Assembly (NCBI GenBank): GCA_964023205.1
Contig: OZ026835.1
Span: 5,352,414 to 5,416,413 of the forward strand
From: Lutraria lutraria
Taxonomy: Eukaryota; Mollusca; Bivalvia; Venerida; Mactridae
DNA: 64,000 nucleotides
Direction of reading: 5' to 3'
The position numbers and the translations under genes are program-made. Shown one piece after another: positions 33,989-51,252 of the stretch. Positions within the stretch are counted from its first letter, which is position 1. Each line of letters starts with the position of its first letter. Under the pieces are notes generated by a model. The model was not told the origin of the DNA. It worked only from the letters and a program-made list of their open reading frames with translations, and ran no database searches.

Positions 33989-34241
33989 AGTAGTAATAGG
34001 CGGTACCCTGGTACCATGGTCATATAGAATATAGAGGGGGTCGGTACCAGAAGTAAACAAAATTGGGACAAATTGGAAATCAATGTTGTACCCCAAAATA
34101 GTATGAATTGAATTTTCGGAATGTTCTGGTACCATTATTTTGTGTGTGTGTGTATAGACTTAGACAATGAGAGAATTTTCTTTCGAAAAGACATGGTGGC
34201 CCTGAAAAGGGCCGTTGGTGGTCCTGAAAAGGACCGTTGGT
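33989..34241 (+). repeat. Left terminal inverted repeat, 253 bp
   Basis: Compared base by base with the reverse complement of 51000-51252 and found identical throughout. It starts AGTAGTAATAGG, so the terminal triplet is repeated. It contains four GGTACC hexamers (34002, 34010, 34043, 34128), a (GT)n run near 34141-34152, and at its inner end two histone-type stem-loops with a purine box. TIRs of protein-primed replicons are the replication origins; here the inner 60 bp also acts as the 3' end of the adjoining gene. Confidence 0.97.
34176..34235 (-). terminator. Tandem histone-type 3' stem-loops plus purine box (after gene at 34248)
   Basis: On the minus strand, 12 nt after the stop codon, GGTCCT-TTTC-AGGACC (34235-34220) is followed after 6 nt by GGCCCT-TTTC-AGGGCC (34213-34198). 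Each has a 6-bp stem, a TTTC loop, a CCAAC 5' flank and an ACCA 3' flank. CGAAAGAAAA follows 12 nt later (34185-34176). This matches the replication-dependent histone mRNA stem-loop (GGYYYT-loop-ARRRCC) with a histone-downstream-element-like box. No AATAAA is seen. Confidence 0.75.
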
Positions 34242-34247
34242 GGTTTT

Positions 34248-34721
34248 TTAAACCGTGTTTGCTGACTGATCTGGTTGGGTACATAGTTCGCATTGGCAGT
34301 CTGGTGGGGGATAGCAGAGCCTGCATGTTGAATCCCCACAGGACCATTCCTGTTCTGGTACTGGTGGTTGTTCCGTGTACTCAACTTGAGCGGTAGTGAT
34401 GATACGCCAATGCTCTTCTTCTTGTTGTTGTTCCCGTTGTCTATTCACCGTTCGTTCCCGAGCATCTCGCTGCCTTTCTCTGACTTGATCTCGAAATTGA
34501 GATAATTCTTCTCTATGATGAAATCGATTGGTTTCAATGGTATTCAAAGTCTCACCAATGAATTGAAGATCACGTTCCCTTTTTCTAACAATGCTAGCCG
34601 CTAAGCGACTGATTGAACGCCATACCCTGCTCTGTTTTTCAGTCAGTTGTTTTGCTGTTTTGAGTTCATTGAATAAAGCCTCCATCTTGAGTGTTTGAGT
34701 TCTCAGAATGAAATGAGGCAT
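34248..34721 (-). CDS. Coiled-coil protein with C-terminal cysteine cluster
   Basis: 157 aa from the ATG at 34721; I do not recognise the family. Residues 20-105 are highly charged and probably helical or coiled coil, with an Arg/Glu/Gln-rich stretch at 80-105. The C-terminus carries six cysteines (C128, C133, C136, C142, C144, C147) spaced like a small zinc-binding module. The reading frame stays open to a GTG at 34826, but the extra sequence covers three CRE-like boxes repeated at spacings that do not keep frame, so it looks like promoter rather than coding sequence. The gene is separated from its upstream neighbour by a poly(A) site, so it is probably transcribed alone. It ends in the TIR-borne stem-loops. 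It could be an accessory or host-manipulating protein; no function can be assigned. Confidence 0.8.
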   Translation of the reverse strand: MPHFILRTQTLKMEALFNELKTAKQLTEKQSRVWRSISRLAASIVRKRERDLQFIGETLNTIETNRFHHREELSQFRDQVRERQRDARERTVNRQREQQQEEEHWRIITTAQVEYTEQPPVPEQEWSCGDSTCRLCYPPPDCQCELCTQPDQSANTV

Positions 34722-34751
34722 TGTATTGTAAGACGGAGTATTTTTCTGTTG

Positions 34752-34825
34752 AAGCGCCGCCCACTCTCGTGGTTGGATGACGTCATATCGCTTGGATGAC
34801 GTCACCCTAGGGTTGGATGGCGTCA
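34752..34825 (-). promoter_or_regulatory. Triple CRE-like array with GC box
   Basis: Two perfect TGACGTCA sites (34778-34785, 34797-34804) and one variant TGGCGTCA (34818-34825), each inside a repeated TGACGTCATCCAA-type unit, lie 57-104 bp upstream of the ATG at 34721. A GC box (GTGGGCGG on the minus strand) lies near 34760. CRE sites bind ATF/CREB-family factors. Placement fits a core-proximal promoter. Confidence 0.65.
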
Positions 34826-34912
34826 CGCGCCAATGTACCGCACAGACATGTGCTTGATTTTTATGAACTTAGAAAAAAGATAACAGACACCTAGTTTCAG
34901 TTTTTCTAAACT

Positions 34913-34918
34913 TTTATT
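34913..34918 (-). terminator. AATAAA poly(A) signal ending the structural-gene block
   Basis: AATAAA on the minus strand, 44 nt after the protease stop codon, in the context CTTGTTACAAAAATAAAAG. A very similar string follows the gene at 42958. Confidence 0.6.
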
Positions 34919-34961
34919 TTTGTAACAAGAAAACAGTAACAACATGAAACAGTAACATTGT

Positions 34962-35552
34962 TTAATGATCACCATAAAGAGTTGTATTTCTATGTGTGAT
35001 ACTATGATACAAACGGTTGTGACCTTCTGGTCTAGAGTTACGTTGAGCACAACACTTTTGTCCACACTTGTTCACATATTGAGCATGCATGTAATAAGTA
35101 CCATAATATTGTTGAAACCAATGCGTCACATAAGTGTCATTTTTTCCATACATGTCCGGTTTGAATCGGGTTAACAGTATCTGGTTCAAGTCACATTCAC
35201 GTGAGATAAAATCCAAAGCGAATAGACAATACACACCACACACCGGTAACATATCGCCTTGTATTCTCATGGCATTCCACAGATAAGTTTTGTTGACATG
35301 TTTTTTCACAAAGGTTAGAATCTCTTCGAAAGGAGGTAATCCGTAGGAATCAAAGTACACTGCTTTATTGTCTTTTAAATAAAGAGCCACCCAGTGTTCT
35401 CCACGTTGATTCCCGTTATGGGTATTCACAATATAGGCTTTCACGTCATGCGGTTTCTCTGAAGGTAATTGATCTTTGGCACAAACACGAGCATGTAGTG
35501 GTTTTAATAACGGTGAATGATCTAATAGGTATTGTAGTTCATTCGTCTCCAT
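34962..35552 (-). CDS. Adenain-like maturation cysteine protease (PRO)
   Basis: 196 aa. A C5/C48-type cysteine protease of the adenain/Ulp1 fold that in this family cleaves capsid and core precursors during particle maturation. Catalytic residues are visible in the expected order: His53 (GEHWVALYL), Asp68 (FDSYG), Gln98 (RIQGD) and Cys105 (VCGVYC). Size is close to that of adenain. The start is the ATG at 35552; the frame remains open to a GTG at 35588, which I reject because GTG is not a normal animal start. The start overlaps the end of the upstream gene by 14 nt. It is the last gene of the structural block, followed by an AATAAA. A Cys-rich tail (near residues 162-169) is additional and of unknown role. 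Confidence 0.93.
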   Translation of the reverse strand: METNELQYLLDHSPLLKPLHARVCAKDQLPSEKPHDVKAYIVNTHNGNQRGEHWVALYLKDNKAVYFDSYGLPPFEEILTFVKKHVNKTYLWNAMRIQGDMLPVCGVYCLFALDFISRECDLNQILLTRFKPDMYGKNDTYVTHWFQQYYGTYYMHAQYVNKCGQKCCAQRNSRPEGHNRLYHSITHRNTTLYGDH

Positions 35553-36003
35553 AATGCCAATTTCTGTTGACACGTTCAGCCCAAACACTGATCCATTGAT
35601 CTATGAACTGATTCTGAGTGAGTTCTTCTTTAAATTGAATCCATAATCGACACGCGTCTCCTTTTTCACTATCGGTCAAGGTCACTAATTCAGGATACCA
35701 CTTTTCCATGACCTTGAACACGTCCAAACGTTGAATCGCTTTTTGAATGTAAAGTTCTGTCCACTCTTCCGTATTCGTGTATAAGCAGAGTACATGTTGT
35801 ACTTGACTAGGATGATTCACTCGACAACCATAACAGTCTTTATGCACTTGATTATAAATTAAAGATTGGAGTGCTTCTGTGACGTGATGATTCAAGCACT
35901 CTTGTAAAAAGTCCGTCCTTGAACTTGTACAACAAGGATACGCCAATAACTTCATTTCGTAATCTTGTCCTTTTTCCAGGTGTTCAATATCCATGTCTTC
36001 CAT
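35539..36003 (-). CDS. Uncharacterised Polinton protein with Cys/His-rich motif
   Basis: 154 aa, function unknown. The centre holds a dense set of possible metal ligands: C24, C25, C36, H39, H40, H54, C57, C60, H64, H70, C73, including the segment CYGCRVNHPSQVQHVLC. I recall similar C-x2-C...HPSQ...H-x2-C segments in Polinton-type ORFs of other invertebrates, but cannot check this here. The C-terminal half is helical and rich in Trp and charged residues. The ATG at 36003 lies 1 nt after the stop of the major capsid gene (TAAGATG) and its end overlaps the protease start, so it sits inside the virion-morphogenesis block. A zinc-binding structural or assembly role is inference only. Confidence 0.85.
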   Translation of the reverse strand: MEDMDIEHLEKGQDYEMKLLAYPCCTSSRTDFLQECLNHHVTEALQSLIYNQVHKDCYGCRVNHPSQVQHVLCLYTNTEEWTELYIQKAIQRLDVFKVMEKWYPELVTLTDSEKGDACRLWIQFKEELTQNQFIDQWISVWAERVNRNWHYGDE

Positions 36004-36004
36004 C

Positions 36005-37303
36005 TTAATAATCTAGAAGCACTTCTCTGAATTGATTGATTTCAATTTGATTGTCGTATTCCGCAAATACAATCACGTTGATGGCTTGTGCAAGTGCTGT
36101 TCCAAAGTGAAATTCCAATCTCAGATTGCCCGTTTTTATAGGATGGAGTTGACCTTCCTCGCAACCTTGATCTGCTGTCAAGTCCAACCCCCAGAGTGTG
36201 TATCCGTTCCGATAATCATTCATGCTCAATCCAAATGAACGATTGAGACCAAGAGCTCCTGTCGCTTGATAGAGTGACATGTAGGATCTTAGAACTTCTC
36301 CCGTTTCAAAATTGGGTTGAAACGCTTTGTTATGAATACTTTTTCCGTCAATGCTGACTTCTAGATGATTCAGTGTAAAATGACGGAAATCAAAGGGGTT
36401 GGTAGCCATGTCTCCATTCATGTCTCCATTTCTTACCATACCGATGATAAGACGTTTTGGCAATTGACCTTGAAATAAATGATCTTCAATCTTGGATCGT
36501 TGACCGTTAGGAATCGTAAATGTTTTTACTTCAGTTCGTCGGATGGGGATTTTCATGTTATGTTGAGCAATCTGTTGATTGAGTTGATTGGCTACCACTG
36601 GCAGTAAATCTACTGTTCTTACATTAAATCCTGCTTCTAGAAACTTGATTTTAGCCGGTGCGGCACCCATGAGACAGAATTGAGGTGACGCTTTGTTTAG
36701 TCTTAAGCGTATTTCCATACCATTGGGTAAATATTTATCTTGCATCATCAGATCCAAATGAAGTCGTCCACATAGTTCCACCACACGACTTTGAAGGACA
36801 CGATCACGTCTCTCAATATAGCCCAGGTTACCCCCGTCATGTGCGTGGGTGTTCATATGACCAGGGGTGTCTTCACCCCATAACTCTAGCGCCTGAAGTT
36901 GAGTGTCTTTACAGCTTGAGGTGAAGGAGAGTAAATTTTCTATGTATGCCCGATAGGCATACGTGTCCGCATTGCTGGTGATCAGTTTATTATTCAGGTA
37001 CACATCAATGCTTGAGAACATACTGTGAAAGAAATTGTTGACGGTAGCAATTTCACTGTCGGCCGCTAGGTCTGTACCATCTGCCTGTATAATTTTGAGT
37101 TTTAGGTACAGGTAAGATTGATTCAGATCTGTCCATTTTTCTGTCTGTGCAGGAATCACAAATTCAATCGGAGCATTATTGTCCAGAGCAGAAATGGGAT
37201 AATGCTCAGTCCATTGACCTTCTTGCATGGCTGTCATGGTAGGTGGCACAACAGACACATCCAACTCTGTCTTACTACATTCACAGGAACCGTGTTGCAT
37301 CAT
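36005..37303 (-). CDS. Major capsid protein, double jelly-roll (hexon-like)
   Basis: 432 aa. The predicted building block of the pseudo-hexagonal capsid lattice, equivalent to adenovirus hexon and other double-jelly-roll major capsid proteins. Recognised by family-typical segments: APIEFVIPA (44-52), then the YLYLKLKI strand (64-71), NNFFHSMFSSIDVYLN (89-104) and YAYRAYIENLLSF (115-127), plus LEVSIDGKSIHNKAF in the second half. Animal copies of this protein are often found in databases as uncharacterised F54H12.2-like proteins. The length is typical for Polintons. The ORF is intact. Its ATG is 2 nt after the stop of the basic protein upstream, and the next gene follows after 1 nt. The capsid set (MCP, penton-like protein, ATPase, protease) is complete. 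Confidence 0.95.
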   Translation of the reverse strand: MMQHGSCECSKTELDVSVVPPTMTAMQEGQWTEHYPISALDNNAPIEFVIPAQTEKWTDLNQSYLYLKLKIIQADGTDLAADSEIATVNNFFHSMFSSIDVYLNNKLITSNADTYAYRAYIENLLSFTSSCKDTQLQALELWGEDTPGHMNTHAHDGGNLGYIERRDRVLQSRVVELCGRLHLDLMMQDKYLPNGMEIRLRLNKASPQFCLMGAAPAKIKFLEAGFNVRTVDLLPVVANQLNQQIAQHNMKIPIRRTEVKTFTIPNGQRSKIEDHLFQGQLPKRLIIGMVRNGDMNGDMATNPFDFRHFTLNHLEVSIDGKSIHNKAFQPNFETGEVLRSYMSLYQATGALGLNRSFGLSMNDYRNGYTLWGLDLTADQGCEEGQLHPIKTGNLRLEFHFGTALAQAINVIVFAEYDNQIEINQFREVLLDY

Positions 37304-37305
37304 GA

Positions 37306-37671
37306 TTAATCGAAAATATCAAGAGGTCTGGCCTGCTTAACTCGGCGATGATGAAGTTTCGAATGAGGTCTTTTCTTGACTGGTTTGCTCTTTATACGTC
37401 TTTTAGGGCTGGCCACGGCATGTAGCAAGGATTCACCCACATCTTTTAATACAGAGGCTCCACGTTTTCGTATTACTTGTTTAGCGTTTGATCCTGTCAA
37501 GATATCTTTGATAGCGGCTTTTCCTTGCTGGAGTCCTTCTTTTTTCAAGGTGCGAACTCCAGATTTCACAAATGGATTCAGTAAAGGTATAATTCTTTTC
37601 ATGGCTTTCTTAAACATGGATCCAAGTCCGTGTCCATATTGTCGAGGTTGACCTTGGTAAGTAGGTATCAT
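37306..37671 (-). CDS. Small basic virion protein (candidate minor capsid/core protein)
   Basis: 121 aa, strongly basic. The N-terminus has a Gly-rich segment (YGHGLG, 12-17), followed by a probable amphipathic helix (MFKKAMKRIIPLLNPFV, 19-35), a second helix, and a Lys/Arg-rich tail (about 88-116) likely to bind DNA or act as a nuclear localisation signal. The sequence QYGHG (11-15) fits the adenain cleavage consensus [MILNQ]-x-G-x|G, so it is a plausible protease substrate. Adenovirus-like viruses use basic proteins with amphipathic helices for genome packing and membrane disruption; assigning either role here is inference. The gene lies between the penton-like and major capsid genes, with a 4-nt ATGA overlap upstream and a 2-nt gap downstream. 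Confidence 0.85.
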   Translation of the reverse strand: MIPTYQGQPRQYGHGLGSMFKKAMKRIIPLLNPFVKSGVRTLKKEGLQQGKAAIKDILTGSNAKQVIRKRGASVLKDVGESLLHAVASPKRRIKSKPVKKRPHSKLHHRRVKQARPLDIFD

Positions 37672-38510
37672 TGTCTTTGGCGTAGGTGTAGTTTCACCAT
37701 AGACTTCCCATGAATAAACTGAATAGACTGGCCAGTGTCACCCCTTATATGGATAGTGATGGTGTCAAAGTCGGCTTTAGCCAGTGGTACATAGTGTAAA
37801 TTCAAGAACTCGAAATGAATATGAGGGTTAGTTCCTGCTTTCGTTCTCGGATCAAATGGAGCTACACGTAAGATGGGGGCTTCTATGTTTCCCAAATAGG
37901 TATAAGACGCAAGGTCGGAATAAACAAACAAATGATTATGACCCATGTTAATATCTACGCCATGAGGAAACGGATCTGGAGTGTCTTTAAAAAAGATGGT
38001 CGAAGAACTATCAGGGGCTCCACCCAGTTTAATAAACATGTGAGGATGAAACTGAATGCCTAGTTGATCCGAACTGTCCAGTTTTGCGCGTTTACTTTGT
38101 CCTGAAAAACCCATGGTAAATCGAAGGCCTTTCTGTTTAAATATTTTACCTAATTGATCTTTCACGGTAAAGTCAATCGTCTCGATCAAATGTTGGGGTG
38201 TGACATAAGTTCCTACAGGAATACAAAGTCGTACACCTTTTTCTTCTTTATTGGGGAGAGTACAATAGGTCTCAAAGTTTTCTAAGGCCTTACCCAGGAC
38301 AGGATCATGTGTGACAATGTAGAAATGTCGCTCTTCTTCAGTGACATTAATGACCTGACTAGGAACAATCATTTCCACTAAGGCAATTTCCCAGTCTTGT
38401 TTATTGAGATGGATGGGTTTTGCCAGTTTGGTACGAAAACAACATTGCGTATTGTCTTGGAATAAATCCATAGAGCTATCACTCATGAGTGTGATGTAAA
38501 ACGAACTCAT
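37668..38510 (-). CDS. Penton-like minor capsid protein, single jelly-roll
   Basis: 280 aa. Predicted to occupy the five-fold vertices of the capsid. Recognised from the N-terminal pattern shared by Polinton and adintovirus minor capsid proteins: FYITLMSDSSMDLFQDNT (4-21), FRTKLAKPI (25-33) and the WEIALVEM strand (40-47) followed by a Pro-containing turn. The rest is beta-rich, with the NMGHNHLFVYSDLA segment late in the protein. Length fits the family. The gene overlaps both neighbours by 4 nt (ATGA), and it is adjacent to the major capsid block as usual. The ORF is intact. Confidence 0.9.
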   Translation of the reverse strand: MSSFYITLMSDSSMDLFQDNTQCCFRTKLAKPIHLNKQDWEIALVEMIVPSQVINVTEEERHFYIVTHDPVLGKALENFETYCTLPNKEEKGVRLCIPVGTYVTPQHLIETIDFTVKDQLGKIFKQKGLRFTMGFSGQSKRAKLDSSDQLGIQFHPHMFIKLGGAPDSSSTIFFKDTPDPFPHGVDINMGHNHLFVYSDLASYTYLGNIEAPILRVAPFDPRTKAGTNPHIHFEFLNLHYVPLAKADFDTITIHIRGDTGQSIQFIHGKSMVKLHLRQRQ

Positions 38511-38752
38511 GTTGATTTAGGTTTATTGAATTTCAAGGAGGGATTCGGTAGAATATAACCTAGAGAACTACTTAAAAGCAGAAGCCACAATTCTCGATCG
38601 GGTCGTTGAAAACACAAATTAAATAGCGATACGGTAATAATAATAAATACCACTACAATTTGTGCAAAAAAAGTGACCTTATTTTTGGGTTCACACAATT
38701 TGGCTTGCTCTGAGGCAGTCACTACCACACTGGCCGTATCAGCTTGAGACAT
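38507..38752 (-). CDS. Small two-helix membrane protein
   Basis: 81 aa from the ATG at 38752. Residues 27-47 (VTFFAQIVVVFIIITVSLFN) form a clear transmembrane segment. A second hydrophobic stretch (53-69) has the pattern ELWLLLLSSSLGYILPNP, a segment I recall as conserved in small membrane proteins of Polintons and adintoviruses. The short acidic N-terminus has no signal peptide. The frame extends upstream to a TTG at 38794 that would overlap the integrase gene; the ATG leaves a 14-nt gap instead. Its place among capsid genes suggests a role in particles or egress, possibly linked to the acylated YPDL protein at 48698. Function is unproven. Confidence 0.85.
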   Translation of the reverse strand: MSQADTASVVVTASEQAKLCEPKNKVTFFAQIVVVFIIITVSLFNLCFQRPDRELWLLLLSSSLGYILPNPSLKFNKPKST

Positions 38753-38766
38753 GATGTATTTATTAA

Positions 38767-39840
38767 CTAAACGAGATGGGATTCGGGAATCCAACTGTCA
38801 AATTTCGAAGGATAGCCTTTCCAATGTACTTTAATTTCTCGTCTTCCGTCTACCTTACTCTGGCGATGGGCGAGCACTGATTCAATTTCATAGATAGCAT
38901 CATCTTTTATAACCTGTACTTCAGAGAAATAAAACGAACCCAGTATGGGTTCTCCGTCTAAATCAGTCAATTTCACAGTAGCAGGAGAGGTCTTTTTGAC
39001 TTGGATCACTTTAAACAGTTCAGTGGTCCAGTTGGGTAGATAACCTTTATCAAATGTACGTTTTGTTTTATTGATACGAACAATATCTCCCACATGAAGG
39101 GTCGTCGACGCTTTCTTTCTTGATTTTCCATACAAGGTCAAGGCCACTTGAGATTCGTTATTCTCATTCACGGATACGGGTGCCATTTGTATACTACGAT
39201 GAACACGATGATTATAGGCATGCACGAGATCAGGCAATACCTGAATATACCTTCGTGTTTTATGATGCGTAAAGTATTTCCACATGCGTGATTTTAAGGT
39301 CCGTTGAAAACGTTCCACTATACTAGCCTTCGTTTCTGGGTTTTCAGTCGTAAAATAATGAATCCCTACTTTGTCTAAAAACTGTTGAAACCTTTGATTC
39401 TTGAATTCTGTTCCTTTATCGGTTTGCAACGCTTTAGGTTGTCTCGTTTTAAGAATAGAGCGAAACGCTTCCACCAATGTGAGCCCCGTTTTATCCTTGA
39501 GGGGAACGACCCAAGCATATTTTGAAAACACGTCAATGACACACAACAAATATCGATAAGGGGTGTTGTACTGAGCCAAGGATTGCATGTCTGCCAAATC
39601 AGCTTGCCATTGATGATCAATACCGCCCACAATCGTTTTCCGTCTCGAGAATACCCTACGGATAGGTTTGTGCAGGGTATAGGTCTTTTGTCCCTTCAAC
39701 CAGGATCGCACTTGACTTGGTGTAATGGATTTCAGTTGAGTTCGAGCTGCTGTAGTAAGACGTTCTACCCCACCAAAACCAGCCGGATGATGGGGATCAT
39801 AATAAATCTGATGTAACAGACTGTCTACCTTTTTGTTCAT
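38767..39840 (-). CDS. Retrovirus-like DDE integrase with C-terminal chromodomain
   Basis: 357 aa. Catalyses integration of the linear element and makes the 6-bp target duplication. The rve core is intact: Asp81 in WQADLADM, Asp141 in QTDKGTEF, Glu176 in KASIVERF, a DDE triad with about 35 residues between the last two. After the core comes an SH3-like stretch (VGDIVRINKTKRTFDKGY) and, at about 317-357, a chromodomain (YEIESVL...VHWKGYP...DSWIP), which in relatives reads histone methylation and can steer target choice. The N-terminal region has no clear HHCC zinc finger. Start chosen at ATG 39840; a GTG at 39861 would overlap the previous gene. The gap to the upstream stop is 5 nt. Confidence 0.95.
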   Translation of the reverse strand: MNKKVDSLLHQIYYDPHHPAGFGGVERLTTAARTQLKSITPSQVRSWLKGQKTYTLHKPIRRVFSRRKTIVGGIDHQWQADLADMQSLAQYNTPYRYLLCVIDVFSKYAWVVPLKDKTGLTLVEAFRSILKTRQPKALQTDKGTEFKNQRFQQFLDKVGIHYFTTENPETKASIVERFQRTLKSRMWKYFTHHKTRRYIQVLPDLVHAYNHRVHRSIQMAPVSVNENNESQVALTLYGKSRKKASTTLHVGDIVRINKTKRTFDKGYLPNWTTELFKVIQVKKTSPATVKLTDLDGEPILGSFYFSEVQVIKDDAIYEIESVLAHRQSKVDGRREIKVHWKGYPSKFDSWIPESHLV

Positions 39841-39845
39841 GTTGT

Positions 39846-40595
39846 CTAGTAGGCTTCCCACTTAGGTTCTGCTTTCATCTGTTTGACAGGTTTACTTATA
39901 GGTTCTGCTTTCATCTGTTTGGCAGGTTTACTTATAGGTGAAGGAGGCTCAACAAAACTATCAAAGAATTCATCATCTTCCTCCGAATCGTCTGCTTTTT
40001 GCATCCATGACCATCTCCGTTTATTTCCTATCGCTTCTTGTGGTACATTGACATCTCTTAGTCCACTAGAAAACTGTTCCCATCCTCTAGGCTCCGACCC
40101 TTTTCTATGACGTATGACATCATTGACCAAATCAATAATGTTGGATCCTTGTATTGGTTTTCCATGGTATTCCAACATCCCTTGATCATTCCATGACATG
40201 TGGGGATGATTTTGTAGAAAGTGTAATAAAAGCTGAGTTTTTCGACGCATAGTAGTAGGAACACTTTCAAGAATCCGATCCGTCAATGTAGCAGGAGCCG
40301 CTTGTGCACCTTGAGCAGCTGGAACAACCGGTGCAGCCGGTGCAACTGGTGCAGCCAGAGTAGCCGGTTCACGTGCTTTTTGATGAGACAGTTGAAACTT
40401 TTGCAAGACTTGCCCATAGTGTTGTGCTTTTTCTGATTCAGACAACGATTCATTTTGTAATACGTCTCCCATTTGTTTCTGTAAATCGGATGTTTGACTG
40501 ACTTGCGGGGGAGGAGGTAAACGTGGTCGTTGTTCTGTTTTCCATCGATTCATCTCTTCTAGCATTTTGAACGGGACGATAGCCATTTTCTTCAT
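39846..40595 (-). CDS. Conserved Polinton protein of unknown function
   Basis: 249 aa. Features: helical N-terminal module (KQMGDVLQNESLSESEKAQHYGQVLQKF region, 40-67), an Ala/Pro/Val-rich linker (78-103), and a second conserved module (105-185) with RILESVP, LLLHFLQ, GKPIQGSNIIDLVND and RGWEQFSSGL. I recall this two-module architecture from many invertebrate Polintons, where it has no experimental function. The C-terminus is acidic (201-214) and ends in a 12-residue tandem duplication (ISKPxKQMKAEP) that corresponds to a 36-bp DNA duplication near 39860-39935. The gene overlaps the pX-like gene by 4 nt (ATGA). Probably a structural or assembly protein, judging from its neighbours. Confidence 0.85.
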   Translation of the reverse strand: MKKMAIVPFKMLEEMNRWKTEQRPRLPPPPQVSQTSDLQKQMGDVLQNESLSESEKAQHYGQVLQKFQLSHQKAREPATLAAPVAPAAPVVPAAQGAQAAPATLTDRILESVPTTMRRKTQLLLHFLQNHPHMSWNDQGMLEYHGKPIQGSNIIDLVNDVIRHRKGSEPRGWEQFSSGLRDVNVPQEAIGNKRRWSWMQKADDSEEDDEFFDSFVEPPSPISKPAKQMKAEPISKPVKQMKAEPKWEAY

Positions 40596-40963
40596 AGCTT
40601 TTTCACCAGTGTGGCAACACCTCCACTGAGTGCTCCTGCAGCAACAGCTTTAGCAATGATTGGAGCAAGAGCCAGTAATGGAAATAATCCTCCTTTTTGA
40701 TTCAACACACGTTTCTTTTTTTGAATGGATACTCTTTTATCTGCTAAAGTGCGGAGATGTTGACGCTTGGACTTCAACCTTTGCTTTTGAGAGGGGGATA
40801 AGGCAACATTGCCTTTTAAAACATTCTGACAGCATTCTGACACACATTGAATCATTTCTTTAGATGCTCCATGTATCATCTTTCTTCTTAACCCATCTGG
40901 GGCTTGAGTTAAACCCAAAACCAGATGTCCGTATTTATGCAGGAGTGGTCTCTTTGGTGCCAT
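40592..40963 (-). CDS. pX-like core protein (short paralogue)
   Basis: 123 aa, basic. A helical module at 24-88 (LRRKMIHGASKEMIQCV ... LADKRVSIQKKKRVL) is followed by QKGGLFPLLALAP (89-101) and a hydrophobic Ala/Gly tail to residue 120. The Gly-Gly plus hydrophobic segment resembles adenovirus pX/mu-type core proteins. QKGG|L (89-93) fits the adenain consensus [MILNQ]-x-G-G|x, so the protease may release the tail. The upstream gene (41002) has the same module in its first 105 residues, so the two are tandem paralogues. It overlaps the next gene by an ATGA. Likely binds or condenses the packaged genome; the membrane-active tail is an alternative role. Confidence 0.85.
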   Translation of the reverse strand: MAPKRPLLHKYGHLVLGLTQAPDGLRRKMIHGASKEMIQCVSECCQNVLKGNVALSPSQKQRLKSKRQHLRTLADKRVSIQKKKRVLNQKGGLFPLLALAPIIAKAVAAGALSGGVATLVKKL

Positions 40964-41001
40964 TATGTCAAATAATACCTGTTTTTACTTCTTTACAGCT
41001 T

Positions 41002-42213
41002 TTATACTAAAGCATCAAAGGCTTGTCTTGAAGCTGGATTCATAGGGCCCTGTCTCATCAGGTGAATACGATGTCTCAAAAGGGGTTTCAAGACAGCCTG
41101 TCTTGATAAGGTAGATAAGGATAGGGGTGAAAAACGACACAATGGAGTGTCTGGTGAACTTCTTGAACTGGGAGATGATCTACTAGATGATCTGCTGGAT
41201 GAACTCCTAGGTGTGCTAAAACTACTTGACCCACTGGTTGAATAACTGCTTGGCCCACTGGTTGAATAACTGCTTGGCCCACTGGTTGAATAACTACTTG
41301 GCGAACTGAAGCTGCTTGGTCCACTTCTAGATGAACTGCTTGGCCCACTGCTTGAATAACTCAAACTGCTTGGTCCACTTCTAGATGAACTGCTTGGCCC
41401 ACTGCTTGAATAACTCAAACTGCTTGGCCCACTTCTTGATAAACTTCTTGAACTTCTAGATGAACTGCTTGGTCCACTTCTTGATAAACTTCTAGATGAA
41501 CTTTTAGGTGTGCTAAAACTGTTTGGTCCACTTCTTGATAAACTTCTAGATGAACTTCTTAAACTTTTAGGTGTGGTAAAACTGTTTGATCCACTTCTAG
41601 AAGAATTTCTTAAGCTTTTAGATGAGCTAAAGTTCAAACTACTCACAGGACTGATAGGAGACCATTGTAACTTACTGATTGGAGTTACAGCCATAGAGGG
41701 TGTTGAAGTGGTTTGCTTTCGACGACGGAGAGTAATAAAACGTTCATTGATCTTGGCAGGCGATTTTCTAGCTTTTTTAGCTGGTGCTTTTCTAGGTTTT
41801 CTGGCTGGTGCTTTTCTTTTAGCTGGAGATTTTCTAGGTTTTCTAGCAGGCGCTTTTCTTTTAGCTGGAGATTTTACAAATTTACGAATCGTCTTTTGAC
41901 CATTCCATCGGAGTAAACTTCGTATCATGACTCCACCAAGAAATCCACCTCCTCCTGGTTTCAATATGAGTTGACGTTTAGTATCCATGTCCACTTGATC
42001 ATCTCCCAGCTGCTCTAATTCATGCTGATGTTTTTGCATAAAGTTTTGTGTTTGTTTAGGTAGCACAATTTTCTTTTTTAAAATCACCTTTGCTGCTAAG
42101 GTGAACCACTTGAGCATTTCTTTTAATCCAGACCGTAGCATTTGCTCCCGTACAGTAGGGTCTCGTTCCTGACCCAAATGTTCTAACGATTGAGCTATGG
42201 CTGTGGCTGACAT
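41002..42213 (-). CDS. pX-like core protein with histone H1-like and Ser-rich tail
   Basis: 403 aa. Residues 20-105 align by eye with the 123-aa protein downstream (helix, KVILKKKIVL versus NVLKGNVALS, then a Gly-Gly-hydrophobic segment GGGGFLGGVM at 87-96). Residues 110-155 are an Ala/Lys/Pro repeat with KSPAK and KAPARKPRK units, like a histone H1 or protamine tail. Residues about 180-365 are almost pure Ser/Arg/Gly/Pro repeats (SGPSSYSTS, SRSSSRS), resembling a phospho-regulated RS domain. The last 40 residues are ordered again (LSRQAVLKPLLRHRIHLM). The repeats are also seen at DNA level near 41160-41640. Most likely condenses virion DNA. It lies 38 nt upstream of its paralogue and 34 nt downstream of the ATPase. 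Confidence 0.85.
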   Translation of the reverse strand: MSATAIAQSLEHLGQERDPTVREQMLRSGLKEMLKWFTLAAKVILKKKIVLPKQTQNFMQKHQHELEQLGDDQVDMDTKRQLILKPGGGGFLGGVMIRSLLRWNGQKTIRKFVKSPAKRKAPARKPRKSPAKRKAPARKPRKAPAKKARKSPAKINERFITLRRRKQTTSTPSMAVTPISKLQWSPISPVSSLNFSSSKSLRNSSRSGSNSFTTPKSLRSSSRSLSRSGPNSFSTPKSSSRSLSRSGPSSSSRSSRSLSRSGPSSLSYSSSGPSSSSRSGPSSLSYSSSGPSSSSRSGPSSFSSPSSYSTSGPSSYSTSGPSSYSTSGSSSFSTPRSSSSRSSSRSSPSSRSSPDTPLCRFSPLSLSTLSRQAVLKPLLRHRIHLMRQGPMNPASRQAFDALV

Positions 42214-42247
42214 GATGACTGAATGATCTTATATGAGTAAACGATGT

Positions 42248-42895: not shown

Positions 42896-42935
42896 GACGT
42901 GAAAATCACAACTAACACTATTGGAAGAAAAACAT

Positions 42936-42945
42936 TTTATTTATT
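42936..42945 (-). terminator. Overlapping AATAAA poly(A) signals
   Basis: AATAAATAAA on the minus strand, 13 nt after the stop at 42958, inside CTTGTTACACAAATAAATAA. It shares the CTTGTTACA-n-AATAAA context with the signal at 34913-34918. It marks the probable end of the polymerase transcript unit and lies just before the ATPase start. Confidence 0.6.
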
Positions 42946-42957
42946 TGTGTAACAAGT

Positions 42958-43320
42958 TTATGTATGAGTACAAGAATAATCACAACAAGAACAACACATG
43001 TCATGTAAGGGTAACAACAGTTTGTCAGAAAATTCAAACACACATTCTGAATGTCCAGATTGACTCAGAAATGTTAACACAGAGTCATTGTTCACCACCT
43101 GTTTGAACCAATCCGTTTCACTCAAGTCCATGGGTACTGATTGTTTATAAAATGAATTCATCACATGAAGTCCATGTTTCATTTCTTCAAACATGTCTGG
43201 TGTACTCAACTGTTGTCGAATCCATTCCAGAGAATGATGACCTTCAGGTATCTTCATACGATAAGCAAATACCAATGCTTTTCTCAACAGGGTATGGTTC
43301 ATAATATCAAACTGTTCCAT
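42958..43320 (-). CDS. Small uncharacterised protein, tandem paralogue of next gene
   Basis: 120 aa, no recognised family. Mostly helical, with a terminal cysteine cluster CCSCCDYSC (109-117). The segment TPDMFEEM ... DWFKQVVNNDSV (40-81) resembles NPHTFELF ... DWNTYVCNDRV in the 95-aa protein encoded directly upstream, so the two look like old tandem duplicates. The start overlaps the upstream gene by 22 nt. It is the last gene before a double AATAAA, placing it in the polymerase unit and not in the capsid block. Confidence 0.75.
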   Translation of the reverse strand: MEQFDIMNHTLLRKALVFAYRMKIPEGHHSLEWIRQQLSTPDMFEEMKHGLHVMNSFYKQSVPMDLSETDWFKQVVNNDSVLTFLSQSGHSECVFEFSDKLLLPLHDMCCSCCDYSCTHT

Positions 43321-43586
43321 TCTTGAATCGTGTGAATCACTCTATCGTTACATACATAAGTATTCCAATCGTCTCGATGGATAGCTTTCAAGTCTAAGTG
43401 TGCACTGATCATAGCATCACGAATCATCTGTCTAAATAGTTCAAACGTGTGAGGGTTCAGAATCCACGCGCGAATGTCCTTGACCTTGACAAGGTCATCT
43501 TGTACAATACTGTATAACGTATCCGTATACAGCTCAAAATCCAAAATGTAATATAAACTTATAAATCGTCTAGATGGTTTAACCAT
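43299..43586 (-). CDS. Small uncharacterised protein, tandem paralogue of gene at 42958
   Basis: 95 aa from the ATG at 43586 (a TTG at 43607 is the only other upstream start). The N-terminal part is hydrophobic and aromatic (RRFISLYYILDFELY, 6-20); the C-terminal part contains a D72-D73-W74 followed by V-C-N-D-R-V, matching the neighbouring 120-aa protein. No known domain. It overlaps the gene upstream by 28 nt and the gene downstream by 22 nt, which is tight even for this element. Location next to the polymerase hints at an early or replication-related role, without direct evidence. Confidence 0.72.
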   Translation of the reverse strand: MVKPSRRFISLYYILDFELYTDTLYSIVQDDLVKVKDIRAWILNPHTFELFRQMIRDAMISAHLDLKAIHRDDWNTYVCNDRVIHTIQEWNSLIL

Positions 43587-44227
43587 AATTGAATATTTCC
43601 TGAACAAATCACTATTCTAGGTCGATTCGCATGAACGGCTTCAATCTCGTCTTTGACTTCTCTTAAGCGATGCCTTAATTTATAGAACACGGCACGATAC
43701 TGTAGAATATGAATAACATGAGTGAACGGTACCTGTCTCTTAAATACCATGATACCACGTATTTTAAACTGTGAATACGGACGCCATCCGGGGTGAGATC
43801 TCCCATTGTCCTCTTCAGCCATACTGAACCATATCACATTGGGGGTAGAACGAAAATTGTTAGCTAAGGCAGATACGTCGCTCAAATTAGCATCGTGGAT
43901 TAAAAAATCCCATGTCGTAGATAACATACGATCTAAGCTTTGTTGTACCACATTCAGTTTTCGTAGAATCGGTAATTTTTGGTTGAATGACAAGTCCTGG
44001 CGATCACCTACATCCTTCAACAGTCTCTCTATCCGTCGATGATTTGTATGTTGTAAGCTATGTATAGCATTATGAGTAGCCCATGTGTGCACTAACTCCA
44101 TCTTCCATGTTTTAGCGTTAGCCCATATGACATAACGATAAATTTTAAGTCTCAGCTCTATCGGTAGTAAGGGTATCCAATCCATGTCTTTATGAATAAT
44201 GAATTTTAGATGACTTGTTCTAGTCAT
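43559..44227 (-). CDS. Uncharacterised protein with F-box-like N-terminus
   Basis: 222 aa. Residues 17-50 (WIPLLPIELRLKIYRYVIW ... LVHTW) follow the F-box pattern LPxEL-x2-I-x-x-Y/L with a later aromatic-Trp position; an F-box would link it to SKP1 and the SCF ubiquitin ligase. The remainder is helical with a central Asp/Ser-rich part and no recognised domain; VIWFSMAEEDNG and FKIRGIMVFKRQVPF are likely beta strands. The gene starts 17 nt after the polymerase stop, so both are probably on one transcript. Its start region carries a direct repeat AAGGTCAAGGTCA (44235-44247). The F-box call is weak and needs profile support. Confidence 0.7.
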   Translation of the reverse strand: MTRTSHLKFIIHKDMDWIPLLPIELRLKIYRYVIWANAKTWKMELVHTWATHNAIHSLQHTNHRRIERLLKDVGDRQDLSFNQKLPILRKLNVVQQSLDRMLSTTWDFLIHDANLSDVSALANNFRSTPNVIWFSMAEEDNGRSHPGWRPYSQFKIRGIMVFKRQVPFTHVIHILQYRAVFYKLRHRLREVKDEIEAVHANRPRIVICSGNIQLWLNHLDDL

Positions 44228-48112: not shown

Positions 48113-48145
48113 ACGTACGCTCCGTCCGTTTTTTATCATTTCAAC

Positions 48146-48496
48146 ATGAGCGATCCTAAAATGAACCAAGTTGAAGAGAACCGAGATCAAACTTTGATGT
48201 ATTCATTAAAGAAGAAAATTAAAGAGCTTAACAACTTAGCGGATCAGCTCTGTGGACAGAAAAATGTAACATGGGATCATATCAAGTGTTATCGTTGTGG
48301 AAAGAAAGGACATTATTCTACAAGCTGTACGGAACCCTTCAACAATGAATGCTTTTATTGTCATGAACAAGGACATTTCATCGCAGACTGTCCTAAGAAA
48401 CAAGGTGAACAGGTCGATCTACAGGACGCAGAACAGAGTAAGAAAAAACGTAAATACAAAAAGAATCCAACAAAAACTGTGAGTGACTTTGTGTAA
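48146..48496 (+). CDS. Double CCHC zinc-knuckle protein
   Basis: 116 aa. Two retroviral-type zinc knuckles, CYRCGKKGHYSTSC (48-61) and CFYCHEQGHFIADC (69-82), both C-x2-C-x4-H-x4-C, which bind single-stranded nucleic acid. A short coiled-coil-like N-terminus (17-35) and a Lys/Arg-rich tail (99-110) that could be a nuclear localisation signal flank them. It is divergent from the polymerase and shares the promoter region, which fits a replication role such as single-strand binding or chaperone activity; this is inference. It is followed by an ordinary AATAAA at 48601. Zinc knuckles of this kind also occur in cellular CNBP-like proteins, so capture from the host is possible. Confidence 0.88.
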   Translation: MSDPKMNQVEENRDQTLMYSLKKKIKELNNLADQLCGQKNVTWDHIKCYRCGKKGHYSTSCTEPFNNECFYCHEQGHFIADCPKKQGEQVDLQDAEQSKKKRKYKKNPTKTVSDFV

Positions 48497-48606: not shown

Positions 48607-48671
48607 ATGATAGACAATGTAATATGCTTTTGTCTTTGCTTGAGATATAAAACGAATCTAACACATATGGT

Positions 48672-48687
48672 GGCCCTAATAAGGGCC
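48672..48687 (-). terminator. Histone-type 3' stem-loop (single)
   Basis: Minus strand GGCCCT-TATT-AGGGCC with CCAAC before and ACCA after, 10 nt after the stop of the 74-aa gene. Stem and flanks match the other copies; the loop is TATT instead of TTTC, which still fits the T-H-T-N loop rule of histone stem-loops. No purine-rich box and no AATAAA is seen downstream. Confidence 0.65.
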
Positions 48688-48697
48688 GTTGGGTAAT

Positions 48698-48922
48698 TCA
48701 TTGCATTTCTGCAAGAAATAGGTATCGCCAATAGTTGGCTCTCAAATCCTCATCATAAAAGATGGCAAGGTCAGGGTATAAATTACCCATCTTGATATCC
48801 ATCTTCACTTCTACACATGCATCTTGGAATTCAGACAAGTCTGGGTACAAATTACCCATCTTGACCACCCAAACATCTTCTTGTTCAGGTTCATCAGAAG
48901 AACTTTTCAAGCAGTTGCCCAT
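48698..48922 (-). CDS. Acylated protein with two YPDL late-domain motifs
   Basis: 74 aa, acidic. The N-terminus MGNCLKSS is a textbook signal for N-myristoylation at Gly2 with a palmitoylatable Cys4, so membrane attachment is expected. KMGNLYPDL occurs twice (21-29 and 44-52). YPDL is of the YPxL class that binds the V domain of the ESCRT adaptor ALIX. The two DNA copies differ at four positions, all silent, so the peptide is under selection. The C-terminus is aromatic (NYWRYLFL). Shares the CCAAT-box region with the divergent gene at 49124 and ends in a histone-type stem-loop. Probably recruits ESCRT to membranes for particle egress; alternatives are signalling or trafficking interference. 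Confidence 0.85.
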   Translation of the reverse strand: MGNCLKSSSDEPEQEDVWVVKMGNLYPDLSEFQDACVEVKMDIKMGNLYPDLAIFYDEDLRANYWRYLFLAEMQ

Positions 48923-48982
48923 GTTGAATCATGAAACATAAATGAGCTATGGAACATGAGAAAAACACTGACCTAGAACAGA

Positions 48983-49059
48983 CCAATGAAATGCCAGTAA
49001 AATAGACCAATGAAATACCGTTAAAATGGACCAATGAAATACTGTTAAAATGGACCAAT
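48983..49059. promoter_or_regulatory. Four CCAAT boxes at exact 24-bp spacing (bidirectional promoter)
   Basis: CCAAT at 48983, 49007, 49031 and 49055, each in a repeated unit GACCAATGAAAT-n-GTTAAAAT; the last is CCAATCAGA, the best NF-Y type context. The array lies between divergent starts at 48922 and 49124, 60-140 bp from each. Arrays of CCAAT boxes are typical of NF-Y-driven, cell-cycle-linked promoters. Confidence 0.75.
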
Positions 49060-49123
49060 CAGAGTCCTTGTATCATATGAGAGTCAGTGACCTTGCCTTG
49101 ATCTAATTTCATTCTGTATCAAG

Positions 49124-49447
49124 ATGTCGCAACGCACGCTTAACATTATTAAGAGAAAGTATACAACCTTAGGGTTGTATATTGAACAACTGGAGATGCA
49201 GTTAGAAGAGTTGAGGTTGGAGGTGAAGACCCTAAGAGAGGGGAAACAGTTCGCGGAGGAGGTTGTGGTCAGCTCTGGGGAAGAGGACTGGGGGGATACC
49301 CCTCAAGAATCAACCCCAGAGAACTGGGAAGATGAACTGGTAGAGGTTCCGTCGAACCTCTACCAACCTACACCGGACCCGAAGGATGTCCAGAAATGGG
49401 ACAAGTGGTGTCCTGCTTGTATGGGGAGATGCGGTCAACGCCATTAA
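49124..49447 (+). CDS. Acidic coiled-coil protein with C-terminal Cys/His module
   Basis: 107 aa, function unknown. Residues 14-40 form a leucine-rich coiled coil (YIEQLEMQLEELRLEVKTL). Residues 44-75 are strongly acidic with a probable CK2-type site (SSGEEDW). The C-terminus WCPACMGRCGQRH carries C96, C99, C103 and H107, a possible single zinc site. The design (charged coiled coil plus terminal Cys cluster) recalls the 157-aa gene at the other end of the element. The gene is driven from the CCAAT-box region, divergent from the acylated protein, and ends 19 nt before tandem histone-type stem-loops. Likely an accessory or host-interaction protein. Confidence 0.78.
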   Translation: MSQRTLNIIKRKYTTLGLYIEQLEMQLEELRLEVKTLREGKQFAEEVVVSSGEEDWGDTPQESTPENWEDELVEVPSNLYQPTPDPKDVQKWDKWCPACMGRCGQRH

Positions 49448-49466
49448 TCCCCATACAAGCACCAAC

Positions 49467-49525
49467 GGTCCTTTTCAGGACCACCAACGGCCCTTTTCAG
49501 GGCCCCTCATACAATTCAGAAAGAA
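49467..49525 (+). terminator. Tandem histone-type 3' stem-loops plus purine box
   Basis: GGTCCT-TTTC-AGGACC (49467-49482) and GGCCCT-TTTC-AGGGCC (49489-49504), separated by 6 nt, then CAGAAAGAA (49517-49525) 12 nt further on. The arrangement repeats the TIR copies with identical spacing, but the sequence between the second loop and the purine box has diverged. The similarity to the TIR inner end runs from 49461 to about 49535. Confidence 0.75.
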
Positions 49526-49750
49526 TCACTCTCATATTGTCAATATTACTAGTATATTTACATTCCTATCTGATAACACCAAATACAAATAGACGGTGTG
49601 AGGTAAGTTAAACATTTCCTACACATATAAGTGATAGTATGATGTGTACAATCATTTTCAACAAATATAAGTGCTGTGATTGTACAAAGTATTTCCCCCA
49701 CAAATATAAGTGTTAGTATGTGATGTACAATCATTTTCAACAAATGTCTG

Positions 49751-50056
49751 CAAATTGCTGTGATAGTATAATGTGTACAGTGTTCAAATTGCTGTGATAG
49801 TATAATGTGTACAGTATTCAAATTGCTGTGATAGTATAATGTGTACAGTATTCAAATTGCTGTGATAGTATAATGTGTACAGTATTCAAATTGCTGTGAT
49901 AGTATTAAGTGTACAGTCTGCAAAGTGCTGTGATAGTATTAAGTGTACAGTGTTCAAATTGCTGTGATAGTATAATGTGTACAGTCTGCAAAGTGCTGTG
50001 ATAGTATTAAGTGTACAGTATTCAAATTGCTGTGATTGTATAATGTGTACAAAGCA
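49751..50056. repeat. Nine tandem 34-bp iterons with TGTACA core
   Basis: Units start at 49751, 49785, 49819, 49853, 49887, 49921, 49955, 49989 and 50023, all exactly 34 bp apart. The consensus runs CAAATTGCTGTGATAGTATA then ATGTGTACAGTATT. Each holds a palindromic TGTACA. Degenerate relatives reach back to about 49617. The array lies between two plus-strand genes, 200 bp before the start at 50254. It could be an enhancer, a packaging or a segregation site; there are no unique spacers, so it is not a CRISPR array. Confidence 0.85.
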
Positions 50057-50210
50057 TATCTACAATATAACCTTGACCTTGACGTGTCAAACACTTGTTA
50101 AAAAAACTTGAAGTGTCACACTTGTAAAAACTTGAAGTGTCACACGTATTCAAAAAAACTTCTCACAATGACCTTGACCTAATAGAACACTGGCGCGTGC
50201 AGGCAAAAAG

Positions 50211-50218
50211 TATAAATA
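50211..50218 (+). promoter_or_regulatory. TATA box of the rightmost gene
   Basis: TATAAATA, 36 bp before the ATG at 50254, the same distance as the TATA box of the zinc-knuckle gene. TGACCTTGACCT (50169-50180) and TGACCTTGA (50074-50082) lie upstream, with two copies of AACTTGAAGTGTCACAC between them (about 50108-50148). Confidence 0.65.
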
Positions 50219-50253
50219 CCCCCGGCGCAGACACTATTTTTTCATTATCTAGC

Positions 50254-50979
50254 ATGGAGTCCTTCAACATGCCATACGATATATTGAGAGAAGCACTAGA
50301 ATCATCTGAGTTGATAGACCCGAATGCGGGTATGCATTACAACCAGCCGAAGTACAACTAGCCAAAGTACGGTCAACTACAGTATAGGCAGCCACAGTAC
50401 AGCCAATACAGTCAACCACTGTACAGCCAATACAGTCAACAGTCCATGGTAGATGTACAGCCTATGGTAGATGTACAGCCGATACAACCCATGGTAGATG
50501 TACAACCCACTATGACGAATACACAACCCATGGTAGATGTACAACCCACTATGACGAATACACAACCTATACAACCTATGACGAATACACAGCCTATGGT
50601 AGATGTACAACCCACTATGACGAATACACAGCCCTCTATGGCGAATACACAGCTTATGACGGATAAACAGTCTAATACAATTACAAAGCCTACAACGGGA
50701 TTGTCTGTTCTACAAGGTATCAAGGAAGAAATGGTACAGATGAATCAAGTCATGCAAGAGATGGTCAGACTCATGAAAAATCAAGAAGTACGGTTTAAGC
50801 CACAAGAAATGATTGTACCTGTACAGTTTATGTATGATTCAAAGAAACGAAAACATGAGCATGAGAAAAAGAAACCGGAGCATGACAAAAAGAAACCGGA
50901 GATGACAGAAACGAAGAAACGGAAACATGATCTTGAGAAACAACCTCGGGGCAAGTATGGTAAAGAAATAAAGAAATGA
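50254..50979 (+). pseudogene. Repeat-rich, Lys-tailed accessory protein interrupted by in-frame TAG
   Basis: One reading frame runs from the ATG at 50254 to 50979 with a single TAG at 50359-50361, inside a Gln/Pro/Tyr-rich repeat (NQPKYN, QPQYSQYSQ). Parts: a 35-codon N-terminal segment (MESFNMPYDILREALESSEL), the Gln/Tyr repeats, then alternating MVDVQP and TMTNTQP repeats (about 50446-50660), a methionine-rich coiled coil (KEEMVQMNQVMQEMVRLM), and a basic tail of KKRKHE, KKKPEHD and KKRKHD units, a likely nuclear localisation signal. A shorter product could start at the ATG at 50446 (177 aa). Either a recent nonsense mutation or stop readthrough explains the TAG. It is followed by TIR stem-loops. 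No function recognised. Confidence 0.65.
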
Positions 50980-50999
50980 AGATCCGACTAACAGTCACA

Positions 51000-51252
51000 A
51001 CCAACGGTCCTTTTCAGGACCACCAACGGCCCTTTTCAGGGCCACCATGTCTTTTCGAAAGAAAATTCTCTCATTGTCTAAGTCTATACACACACACACA
51101 AAATAATGGTACCAGAACATTCCGAAAATTCAATTCATACTATTTTGGGGTACAACATTGATTTCCAATTTGTCCCAATTTTGTTTACTTCTGGTACCGA
51201 CCCCCTCTATATTCTATATGACCATGGTACCAGGGTACCGCCTATTACTACT
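51000..51252 (-). repeat. Right terminal inverted repeat, 253 bp
   Basis: Perfect inverted copy of 33989-34241. The match stops at 50999/34242. The inner end contains the tandem stem-loops that follow the rightmost gene. Confidence 0.97.
51006..51065 (+). terminator. Tandem histone-type 3' stem-loops plus purine box (right TIR)
   Basis: GGTCCT-TTTC-AGGACC (51006-51021), GGCCCT-TTTC-AGGGCC (51028-51043), then CGAAAGAAAA (51056-51065). Starts 26 nt after the stop at 50979. Mirror of the left TIR copy. Confidence 0.75.

Follow-up and report, generated by a model that had tools for sequence, protein, structure and literature searches.

Seven short hairpins that follow small genes of a mobile element, probably in an animal genome, raise the question of whether the mRNAs of these genes could end in the manner of animal histone mRNAs. 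The element spans positions 33989-51252 of the window, which is the whole 64-kb stretch of DNA that was analysed. Its terminal inverted repeats are 256 bp long and 99.6% identical, GGCACT directly flanks both ends as a 6-bp target duplication, and it encodes a family B DNA polymerase (PolB), an rve integrase and an A32-like ATPase, all above the Pfam cutoffs. These features support its assignment to the Polintons/Mavericks, on which the earlier note had already settled. The coordinates are collected in Table 1. For the capsid candidate, the predicted structure (pLDDT 40.4) gave weak matches to a bracovirus protein and to giant-virus and adintovirus capsids, among unrelated proteins, while Pfam returned no capsid family and a PDB sequence search nothing better than E 0.47. 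A PHROGs search with eight proteins found no family.

Table 1. Features of the element and of its four hairpin-bearing gene ends (g1-g4), in window coordinates
Feature	Position	Strand	Evidence or remark
Left terminal inverted repeat	33989-34244	+	256 bp, matched to the reverse complement of 50997-51252
Right terminal inverted repeat	50997-51252	-	256 bp; partner of 33989-34244
Structural gene block	34962-44227	-	Pfam for integrase, ATPase; AATAAA past its last stop
Protease candidate	34962-35552	-	Pfam E 0.044, below cutoff
Capsid candidate	36005-37303	-	weak fold match alone
Second capsid candidate	37668-38510	-	by layout; without family match
Integrase with chromodomain	38767-39840	-	Pfam rve, E 3.2e-12
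A32-like ATPase	42248-42895	-	Pfam E 2.4e-8
Family B DNA polymerase, 1281 aa	44245-48090	-	DNA_pol_B_2, E 3.3e-38
CCHC zinc-knuckle protein	48146-48496	+	zf-CCHC, E 3.9e-8; internal contrast, no hairpin in hairpin scan
g1, 157-aa accessory protein, Cys-rich C-terminus	34248-34721	-	ORF; motif scan; no Pfam family above cutoff
g2, 74-aa protein, N-terminus MGNCLKSSS	48698-48922	-	ORF
g3, 107-aa accessory protein, C-terminal CxxC	49124-49447	+	ORF; motif scan
g4, repeat-rich protein, Lys-rich end	50254-50979	+	ORF
Two TGACGTCA sites and one TGGCGCGTG upstream of g1	34771-34832	-	TGGCGCGTG also upstream of g4
Four CCAAT boxes, 24-bp spacing	48981-49060	+	within 201-bp gap of divergent g2/g3
Hairpin GGCCCTTTTCAGGGCC, distal of tandem pair, g1	34198-34213	-	RF00032 35.8 bits; equals human histone stem-loop
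Hairpin GGTCCTTTTCAGGACC, proximal of tandem pair, g1	34220-34235	-	only 16 bits with RF00032, over model positions 6-22
Single hairpin GGCCCTTATTAGGGCC, g2	48672-48687	-	RF00032 31.0 bits, sense strand
Hairpin GGTCCTTTTCAGGACC, proximal of tandem pair, g3	49467-49482	+	RF00032 16 bits
Hairpin GGCCCTTTTCAGGGCC, distal of tandem pair, g3	49489-49504	+	RF00032 32.5 bits
Hairpin GGTCCTTTTCAGGACC, proximal, g4	51006-51021	+	RF00032 16 bits
Hairpin GGCCCTTTTCAGGGCC, distal, g4	51028-51043	+	RF00032 35.8 bits
GAAAGA, candidate histone downstream element (U7 site), g1	34179-34184	-	14 nt past stem, measured on right repeat copy
GAAAGA, candidate histone downstream element, g3	49519-49524	+	starts 15 nt past stem
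GAAAGA, candidate histone downstream element, g4	51057-51062	+	starts 14 nt past stem
AATAAA inside end of g4 frame	50967-50972	+	counts against exclusive histone-type end

All seven hairpins of the earlier note were recovered at the positions and on the sense strand given there. They are 16 nt long, with a fully paired 6-bp stem of the form GGYYYT/ARRRCC and a 4-nt loop, which is TTTC in six of them and TATT in that of g2. In each of them the first and third loop positions, which are key for SLBP, are U. The nearest hairpin lies 12, 10, 19 and 26 nt past the stop of g1, g2, g3 and g4, respectively, within the 10-26 nt previously claimed, and the tandem partners lie 34, 41 and 48 nt from the stop. 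The earlier hairpin pattern matched seven times in the window, always in the orientation of the neighbouring gene, as compared to a mean of 0.01 in dinucleotide shuffles (n = 100). When only fully paired matches were counted, none appeared in 200 first-order Markov sequences, and a longer flanked histone-type pattern gave five matches in the window vs none in 100 shuffles. Chance hairpins were thus ruled out by the Markov sequences, the shuffles and the covariance model presented below.

The Rfam histone stem-loop covariance model (RF00032, curated cutoff 34 bits) matched each of the four gene ends; a search of the 64 kb at E up to 10 gave no further match. In this check, suggested in the earlier note, two ends exceeded the cutoff, with 35.8 bits each at 34172-34218 (-) and 51023-51069 (+) (E 1e-6 in the 64-kb window), these two being one repeat sequence, but the other two stayed below the cutoff: the g3 end (49484-49528, +) at 32.5 bits (E 1.7e-5 in the window, 4.7e-6 in the element) and the g2 end (48647-48692, -) at 31.0 bits (E 6.5e-5 and 1.8e-5, respectively). 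Within each of the three tandem pairs, the first hairpin reached 16 bits (E 7.1 in the element-only search). GGCCCTTTTCAGGGCC is identical over 16 nt to one of the human histone stem-loops given in PMC7807067. Against the human list, the sense and antisense strands of the g2 hairpin were equal, with two mismatches each, and RF00032 reported the sense strand alone. The likeness of the flanks to those of histone genes, also claimed before, held for CCAA and ACC, except that the 5′ flank of the element ends in C rather than in the A of the Rfam consensus, and that CCT instead of ACC follows the second g3 hairpin.

GAAAGA, which resembles the U7-binding downstream element, was found at +14 or +15 in three of the four gene ends, two of which are one repeat sequence; among comparable 18-nt windows across the element, 0.6% contain it. 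Behind the g2 hairpin there was no GAAAGA within 60 nt, and AAAGA first appeared at +35. In the clam Lucina, purine-rich downstream elements are described for some histone genes only (PMC6210712). Taken together, the covariance model, the identity to a human stem-loop, the position, the orientation and the GAAAGA at three of the four ends strongly support that the gene-end hairpins are histone-type 3′ stem-loops, as judged from sequence.

Polyadenylation signals gave a less uniform picture. The earlier claim that the four genes have no AATAAA nearby was wrong for g4, which has one at 50967, within the end of its frame; in the 270 nt downstream of each of the four genes there is none. Neither AATAAA nor ATTAAA occurs within 300 nt downstream of g2, g3 and g4, and the first AATAAA after g1 lies at +276, outside the element. 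AATAAA follows the structural block at +44 and the zinc-knuckle gene at +105. The DNA polymerase gene has none within 300 nt either, yet it lacks a hairpin.

The earlier note had counted four genes with such ends. Hairpins do stand at four gene ends, but 34198-34235 and 51006-51043 are two copies of one sequence within the 256-bp terminal inverted repeat, so that the distinct hairpin cassettes are three. Likewise, the compensated stem changes were real but fewer than proposed, comprising within the element one pair alone, the third (T-A vs C-G). Between the repeat cassette and that of g3, the tandem hairpins show no difference, and the spacer behind them has diverged. When downstream flanks were compared by a local test, an alignment as good as that of repeat and g3 was obtained in 5 of 2000 shuffles, vs 224 and 141 of 2000 for the other two pairs; a global alignment was weak, the corresponding figures in 1000 shuffles being 55 (repeat-g3), 163 (repeat-g2) and 200 (g3-g2). 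The hairpin cases are not independent, because g1 and g4 share a single repeat sequence and, by the local test, the flanks of the repeat and of g3 seem to be homologous. For g1, g3 and g4, the 3′ region folded better than shuffled sequences (z -3.6 to -4.2); that of g2 gave a z of -2.1, with 9 of 200 shuffles as good.

Regarding the genes themselves, g1-g3 are uninterrupted single reading frames, and g4 presents in this copy one in-frame TAG (50359-50361), its frame being open from the ATG at 50446. No Pfam histone family was found at E up to 1 in g1-g3 or in the open part of g4. The LxCxE motif, which is characteristic of proteins from small DNA tumour viruses, was absent from g1-g4 and from the zinc-knuckle protein in a motif scan. 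The window holds TGGCGCGTG at two places, one ahead of g1 and the other ahead of g4; these sites and the CCAAT boxes of the g2-g3 gap were counted as weaker support for the histone-type reading.

These gene ends share with animal replication-dependent histone genes the 16-nt hairpin, the CCAA and ACC flanks, the proximity to the stop, a purine-rich downstream element at three of four ends, the lack of AATAAA soon past the stop and, in g1-g3, the uninterrupted single frame. They differ in that the genes have no histone family match and are sited in a mobile element, and in the tandem arrangement of the hairpins at three of the four ends. In Hydractinia histone genes, 6-17 bases precede the stem-loop sequences (PMC5011920), vs 10-26 nt from stop to stem here. 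As in human H2AFX, a stem-loop and a possible polyadenylation signal coincide at g4, although the poly(A) form of H2AFX has an extended 3′ UTR (PMC7807067) and the AATAAA of g4 is inside the frame.

With Polintons/Mavericks and adintoviruses, the element shares the inverted repeats, the 6-bp target duplication, PolB, the rve integrase with chromodomain, the A32-like ATPase and the capsid and protease candidates; in contrast, histone-type 3′ ends on accessory genes went unmentioned among the matches listed. That no such Polinton was known to be described, as stated in the earlier note, agrees with the literature searched, where none with histone-type 3′ ends was reported among the matches listed, in texts that span few subscription journals and do not include the main adintovirus paper. 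An exact-short-peptide scan of viral_contigs, which reaches close relatives only, matched one stretch each of capsid, integrase and ATPase, none of them confirmed, and had no match for PolB. In phage records, the capsid search found no match and PolB had three weak ones (24-37% identity). Three hairpin patterns, the flanked one among them, had no match in viral_contigs, nor did the flanked pattern in genome_contigs. A looser pattern matched once in viral_contigs, in the AT-rich contig L001 (GGTTTTTTTGAAAACC), and by eye this was taken for chance.

Could the hairpins serve the DNA rather than the mRNA? As part of the inverted repeat they might mark a replication origin or be recognized by the integrase or the terminal protein, their likeness to histone stem-loops being incidental. 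It fits this view that four of the seven sit inside the inverted repeats, some 210-250 bp away from the ends, and that the g3 cassette, flank included, may have arisen from an old copy of the repeat. However, we judge a DNA-only role unlikely because two cassettes, those of g2 and g3, are internal, and their hairpins directly follow the stops; furthermore, all seven hairpins fit the histone pattern on the sense strand only, and the likeness reaches the CCAA and ACC flanks and the 16-nt identity to the human stem-loop. It also seems unlikely that the ends are relics, captured once from the host, spread by copying and no longer of consequence in this copy. The interruption of g4 and the identity of the repeat and g3 cassettes across their tandem hairpins would agree with such a history, but the hairpins have remained unchanged where the spacer behind them has diverged between repeat and g3, and the other named genes have uninterrupted frames.

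A further alternative overlaps with our own explanation: the histone-type ends would operate in S phase, and some of the genes would also be polyadenylated through read-through or AATAAA, as in H2A.X, which yields both mRNA forms (PMC7807067). The AATAAA inside the g4 end speaks for this combination, whereas the lack of signals within 300 nt of g2, g3 and g4 and the distance of the first one after g1 speak against it, and we regard it as possible but rather doubtful. The explanation that we prefer, that in this Polinton/Maverick four small accessory genes receive their 3′ ends through the histone route of animals, is in our judgement likely on the present sequence evidence. The interpretation given in the earlier note is, as a whole, partly supported.

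By this histone route, host SLBP would bind the hairpin, U7 snRNP would pair with the purine-rich element and the histone cleavage complex would cut a few nucleotides past the stem, leaving an accessory mRNA without a poly(A) tail. That the g1-g4 mRNAs would be non-polyadenylated, SLBP-bound and expressed in S phase is a sound inference. SLBP is S-phase-specific in mammalian cells (PMC7807067), and the accessory proteins would thus be made mainly in DNA-copying cells, at a time at which the polymerase of the element is able to act. The structural block, like the zinc-knuckle gene, carries AATAAA and would be free of this restriction. Since g1 and g4 point outward and take their 3′ end from the inverted repeat, this signal would also stop transcription before the host flank.

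Altogether, the histone-type ends on four small genes suggest that the element ties them to the DNA-copying phase of the cell cycle. We give about even chances to the broader view of a Polinton that expresses non-histone accessory genes from histone-gene-like cassettes, with a divergent promoter rich in CCAAT, short genes free of interruption and 3′ ends of the SLBP/U7 type, through which a virus-like element would read the host S phase directly via its mRNA ends. The hairpins constitute a sequence mark for screening related elements. If the finding is true, poly(A)-selected RNA-seq would miss genes of the g1-g4 type, the histone route would be open to borrowing by a mobile element for unrelated genes, and Polintons would be directly linked to the cell cycle.

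The seven 16-nt hairpins that the earlier note had placed behind four accessory genes (g1 to g4) were all present, each with a 6-bp stem and a 4-base loop. The pattern proposed for them matched seven times in the 64-kb window, whereas 100 shuffles averaged 0.01 matches, and fully paired matches were absent from 200 random sequences with the same dinucleotide make-up. The Rfam histone stem-loop model (RF00032), which scores the flanks as well, gave four matches across the window at E values up to 10, one at each of the four gene ends. In the tandem pairs, the first hairpin was matched only when the element was searched alone (16 bits, E 7.1). As had been claimed, the orientation was sense: both pattern and model fitted only that strand at every site they matched. 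The core GGCCCTTTTCAGGGCC is identical to a human histone stem-loop, one of twelve given in the methods section of PMC7807067. When nine of these twelve were compared with the window, sites with three or fewer mismatches were confined to the seven hairpins; four of them stayed within this limit on the antisense strand too, and the g2 hairpin differed at two positions on either strand. The distances from the stop codons are listed below; in Hydractinia histone genes, 6-17 bases precede the stem-loop sequences, according to PMC5011920. The sequence strongly suggests a histone-type signal at these gene ends.

Positions of the hairpins and other features in the window, with distance from stop codon to nearest hairpin start and Rfam histone model score (cutoff 34 bits)
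Feature	Position	Strand	Distance (nt)	Score (bits)
Inverted repeats	33989-34244, 50997-51252			
g1	34248-34721	-		
Hairpins after g1 (inverted repeat)	34198-34213, 34220-34235	-	12	35.8
g2	48698-48922	-		
Hairpin after g2	48672-48687	-	10	31.0
g3	49124-49447	+		
Hairpins after g3	49467-49482, 49489-49504	+	19	32.5
g4	50254-50979	+		
Hairpins after g4 (inverted repeat)	51006-51021, 51028-51043	+	26	35.8
In-frame TAG in g4	50359-50361	+		
AATAAA in g4	50967			
403-aa protein	41002-42213			
Two TGACGTCA and TGGCGCGTG	34771-34832			
34-bp tandem array	49751-50051			
CAAGGTCA	35677, 35709, 36465, 37649, 39133, 43481, 43490, 44240, 48082, 48766, 49088, 50074, 50169			

A second histone feature was present in part. 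GAAAGA, a typical core of the histone downstream (U7) element, begins 14 nt (inverted repeat) or 15 nt (g3) past the last stem; within the element, GAAAGA occurs in 0.6% and AAAGA in 2.9% of comparable 18-nt windows. The g2 end carries only AAAGA, at 35 nt. This missing purine-rich element is not decisive because in the clam Lucina, as PMC6210712 describes, such elements were detected in some histone genes only, at shifted places.

The surroundings of the hairpins are a Polinton. Its 256-bp inverted repeats are 99.6% identical, GGCACT stands directly outside each end, and it encodes a family B DNA polymerase, an rve integrase with chromodomain and an A32-like ATPase. Together with the hairpin type, the element suggests that the host is an animal. 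For the capsid candidate, a likely assignment, the predicted model was poor (mean pLDDT 40.4); among its better viral hits were giant-virus capsids, an adintovirus capsid and, at 32% identity over 155 columns, a protein from a bracovirus, beside unrelated proteins. Short-peptide scans of viral_contigs revealed no relatives. The element also codes for a Lys/Ser-rich protein of 403 aa that contains SPAKRKAPARKPRK repeats and may be a core protein for DNA packing; it hit no Pfam family above cutoff. The g2 protein starts with MGNCLKSSS, which resembles an N-myristoylation start; the strict motif was not matched. The protein also repeats KMGNLYPDL twice. In this copy g4 is interrupted by an in-frame TAG, and 8.9 copies of a 34-bp unit separate it from g3.

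Promoter features provide weaker hints. Four CCAAT boxes with 24-bp spacing lie in the 201-bp gap that separates the divergent g2 and g3; as many on one strand occurred in 7 of 20000 random 201-bp stretches, a test whose assumption the tandem repeat breaks. The window contains two copies of TGGCGCGTG, one upstream of g1 and the other upstream of g4. We take these CCAAT boxes and TGGCGCGTG, both noticed post hoc, to resemble histone promoters and E2F sites. Upstream of g1, TGGCGCGTG is accompanied by two TGACGTCA sites, presumably of CRE/ATF type. CAAGGTCA, which we take to be a half-site for nuclear receptors of the ERR/SF-1/FTZ-F1 type, has all 13 of its occurrences in the window inside the element and is the element's most enriched 8-mer (12 vs 0.79 expected, tandem arrays masked); nine fall within an interval, defined post hoc, that runs from 200 bp upstream to 20 bp inside any of the 20 listed starts (background 24%).

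The g1 hairpins belong to one copy of the inverted repeat and the g4 hairpins to the other. Since two cassettes lie internally, the hairpins are unlikely to have a role at the element's DNA ends. Between the repeat and g3, the tandem hairpins are identical, the spacer behind them differs, and the flanks become similar again from GAAAGA onward (5 of 2000 shuffles as good in local alignment; weaker in global alignment, 55 of 1000). Such a mosaic is consistent with an ancient common cassette that was maintained where important, and the likeness may also stem from a recent copy. The g2 flank showed no significant likeness to either flank in global or local tests. Regarding the compensated stem changes that had been put forward, a single stem pair varies within the element, so covariation adds little.

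By their 3′ ends, the genes fall into two groups. AATAAA lies 44 nt past the last stop of the structural block and 105 nt past the zinc-knuckle gene. The earlier note had found none near the accessory genes, which holds within 300 nt downstream of g2, g3 and g4, while the first after g1 comes at 276 nt, outside the element; g4, however, contains an AATAAA inside its own end, and dual use of a histone-type end and poly(A) is quite possible for this gene. Absence of AATAAA alone says little, since the DNA polymerase B gene, which bears no hairpin, likewise lacks one within 300 nt.

A literature search returned no report of a histone stem-loop in Polintons or in transposable elements, and among the papers listed for SLBP and viruses, titles and abstract openings revealed no apparent viral genes with such ends. 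'Stem-loop' was absent from four papers on adintoviruses and relatives (PMC11071296, PMC11071308, PMC10812802 and PMC8363768), a set that does not include the original adintovirus paper. 'Histone' was not found in PMC11071308 and appeared twice in PMC11071296, where it refers to histone-like proteins of adomaviruses and tailtomaviruses.

Altogether, the accessory genes probably carry a histone-type 3′ end, and processing by SLBP and U7 is the most likely reading. Host SLBP and U7 snRNP would form these 3′ ends without poly(A), and such ends would lead to accessory proteins being made mainly in S phase, a coupling that we consider somewhat likely.
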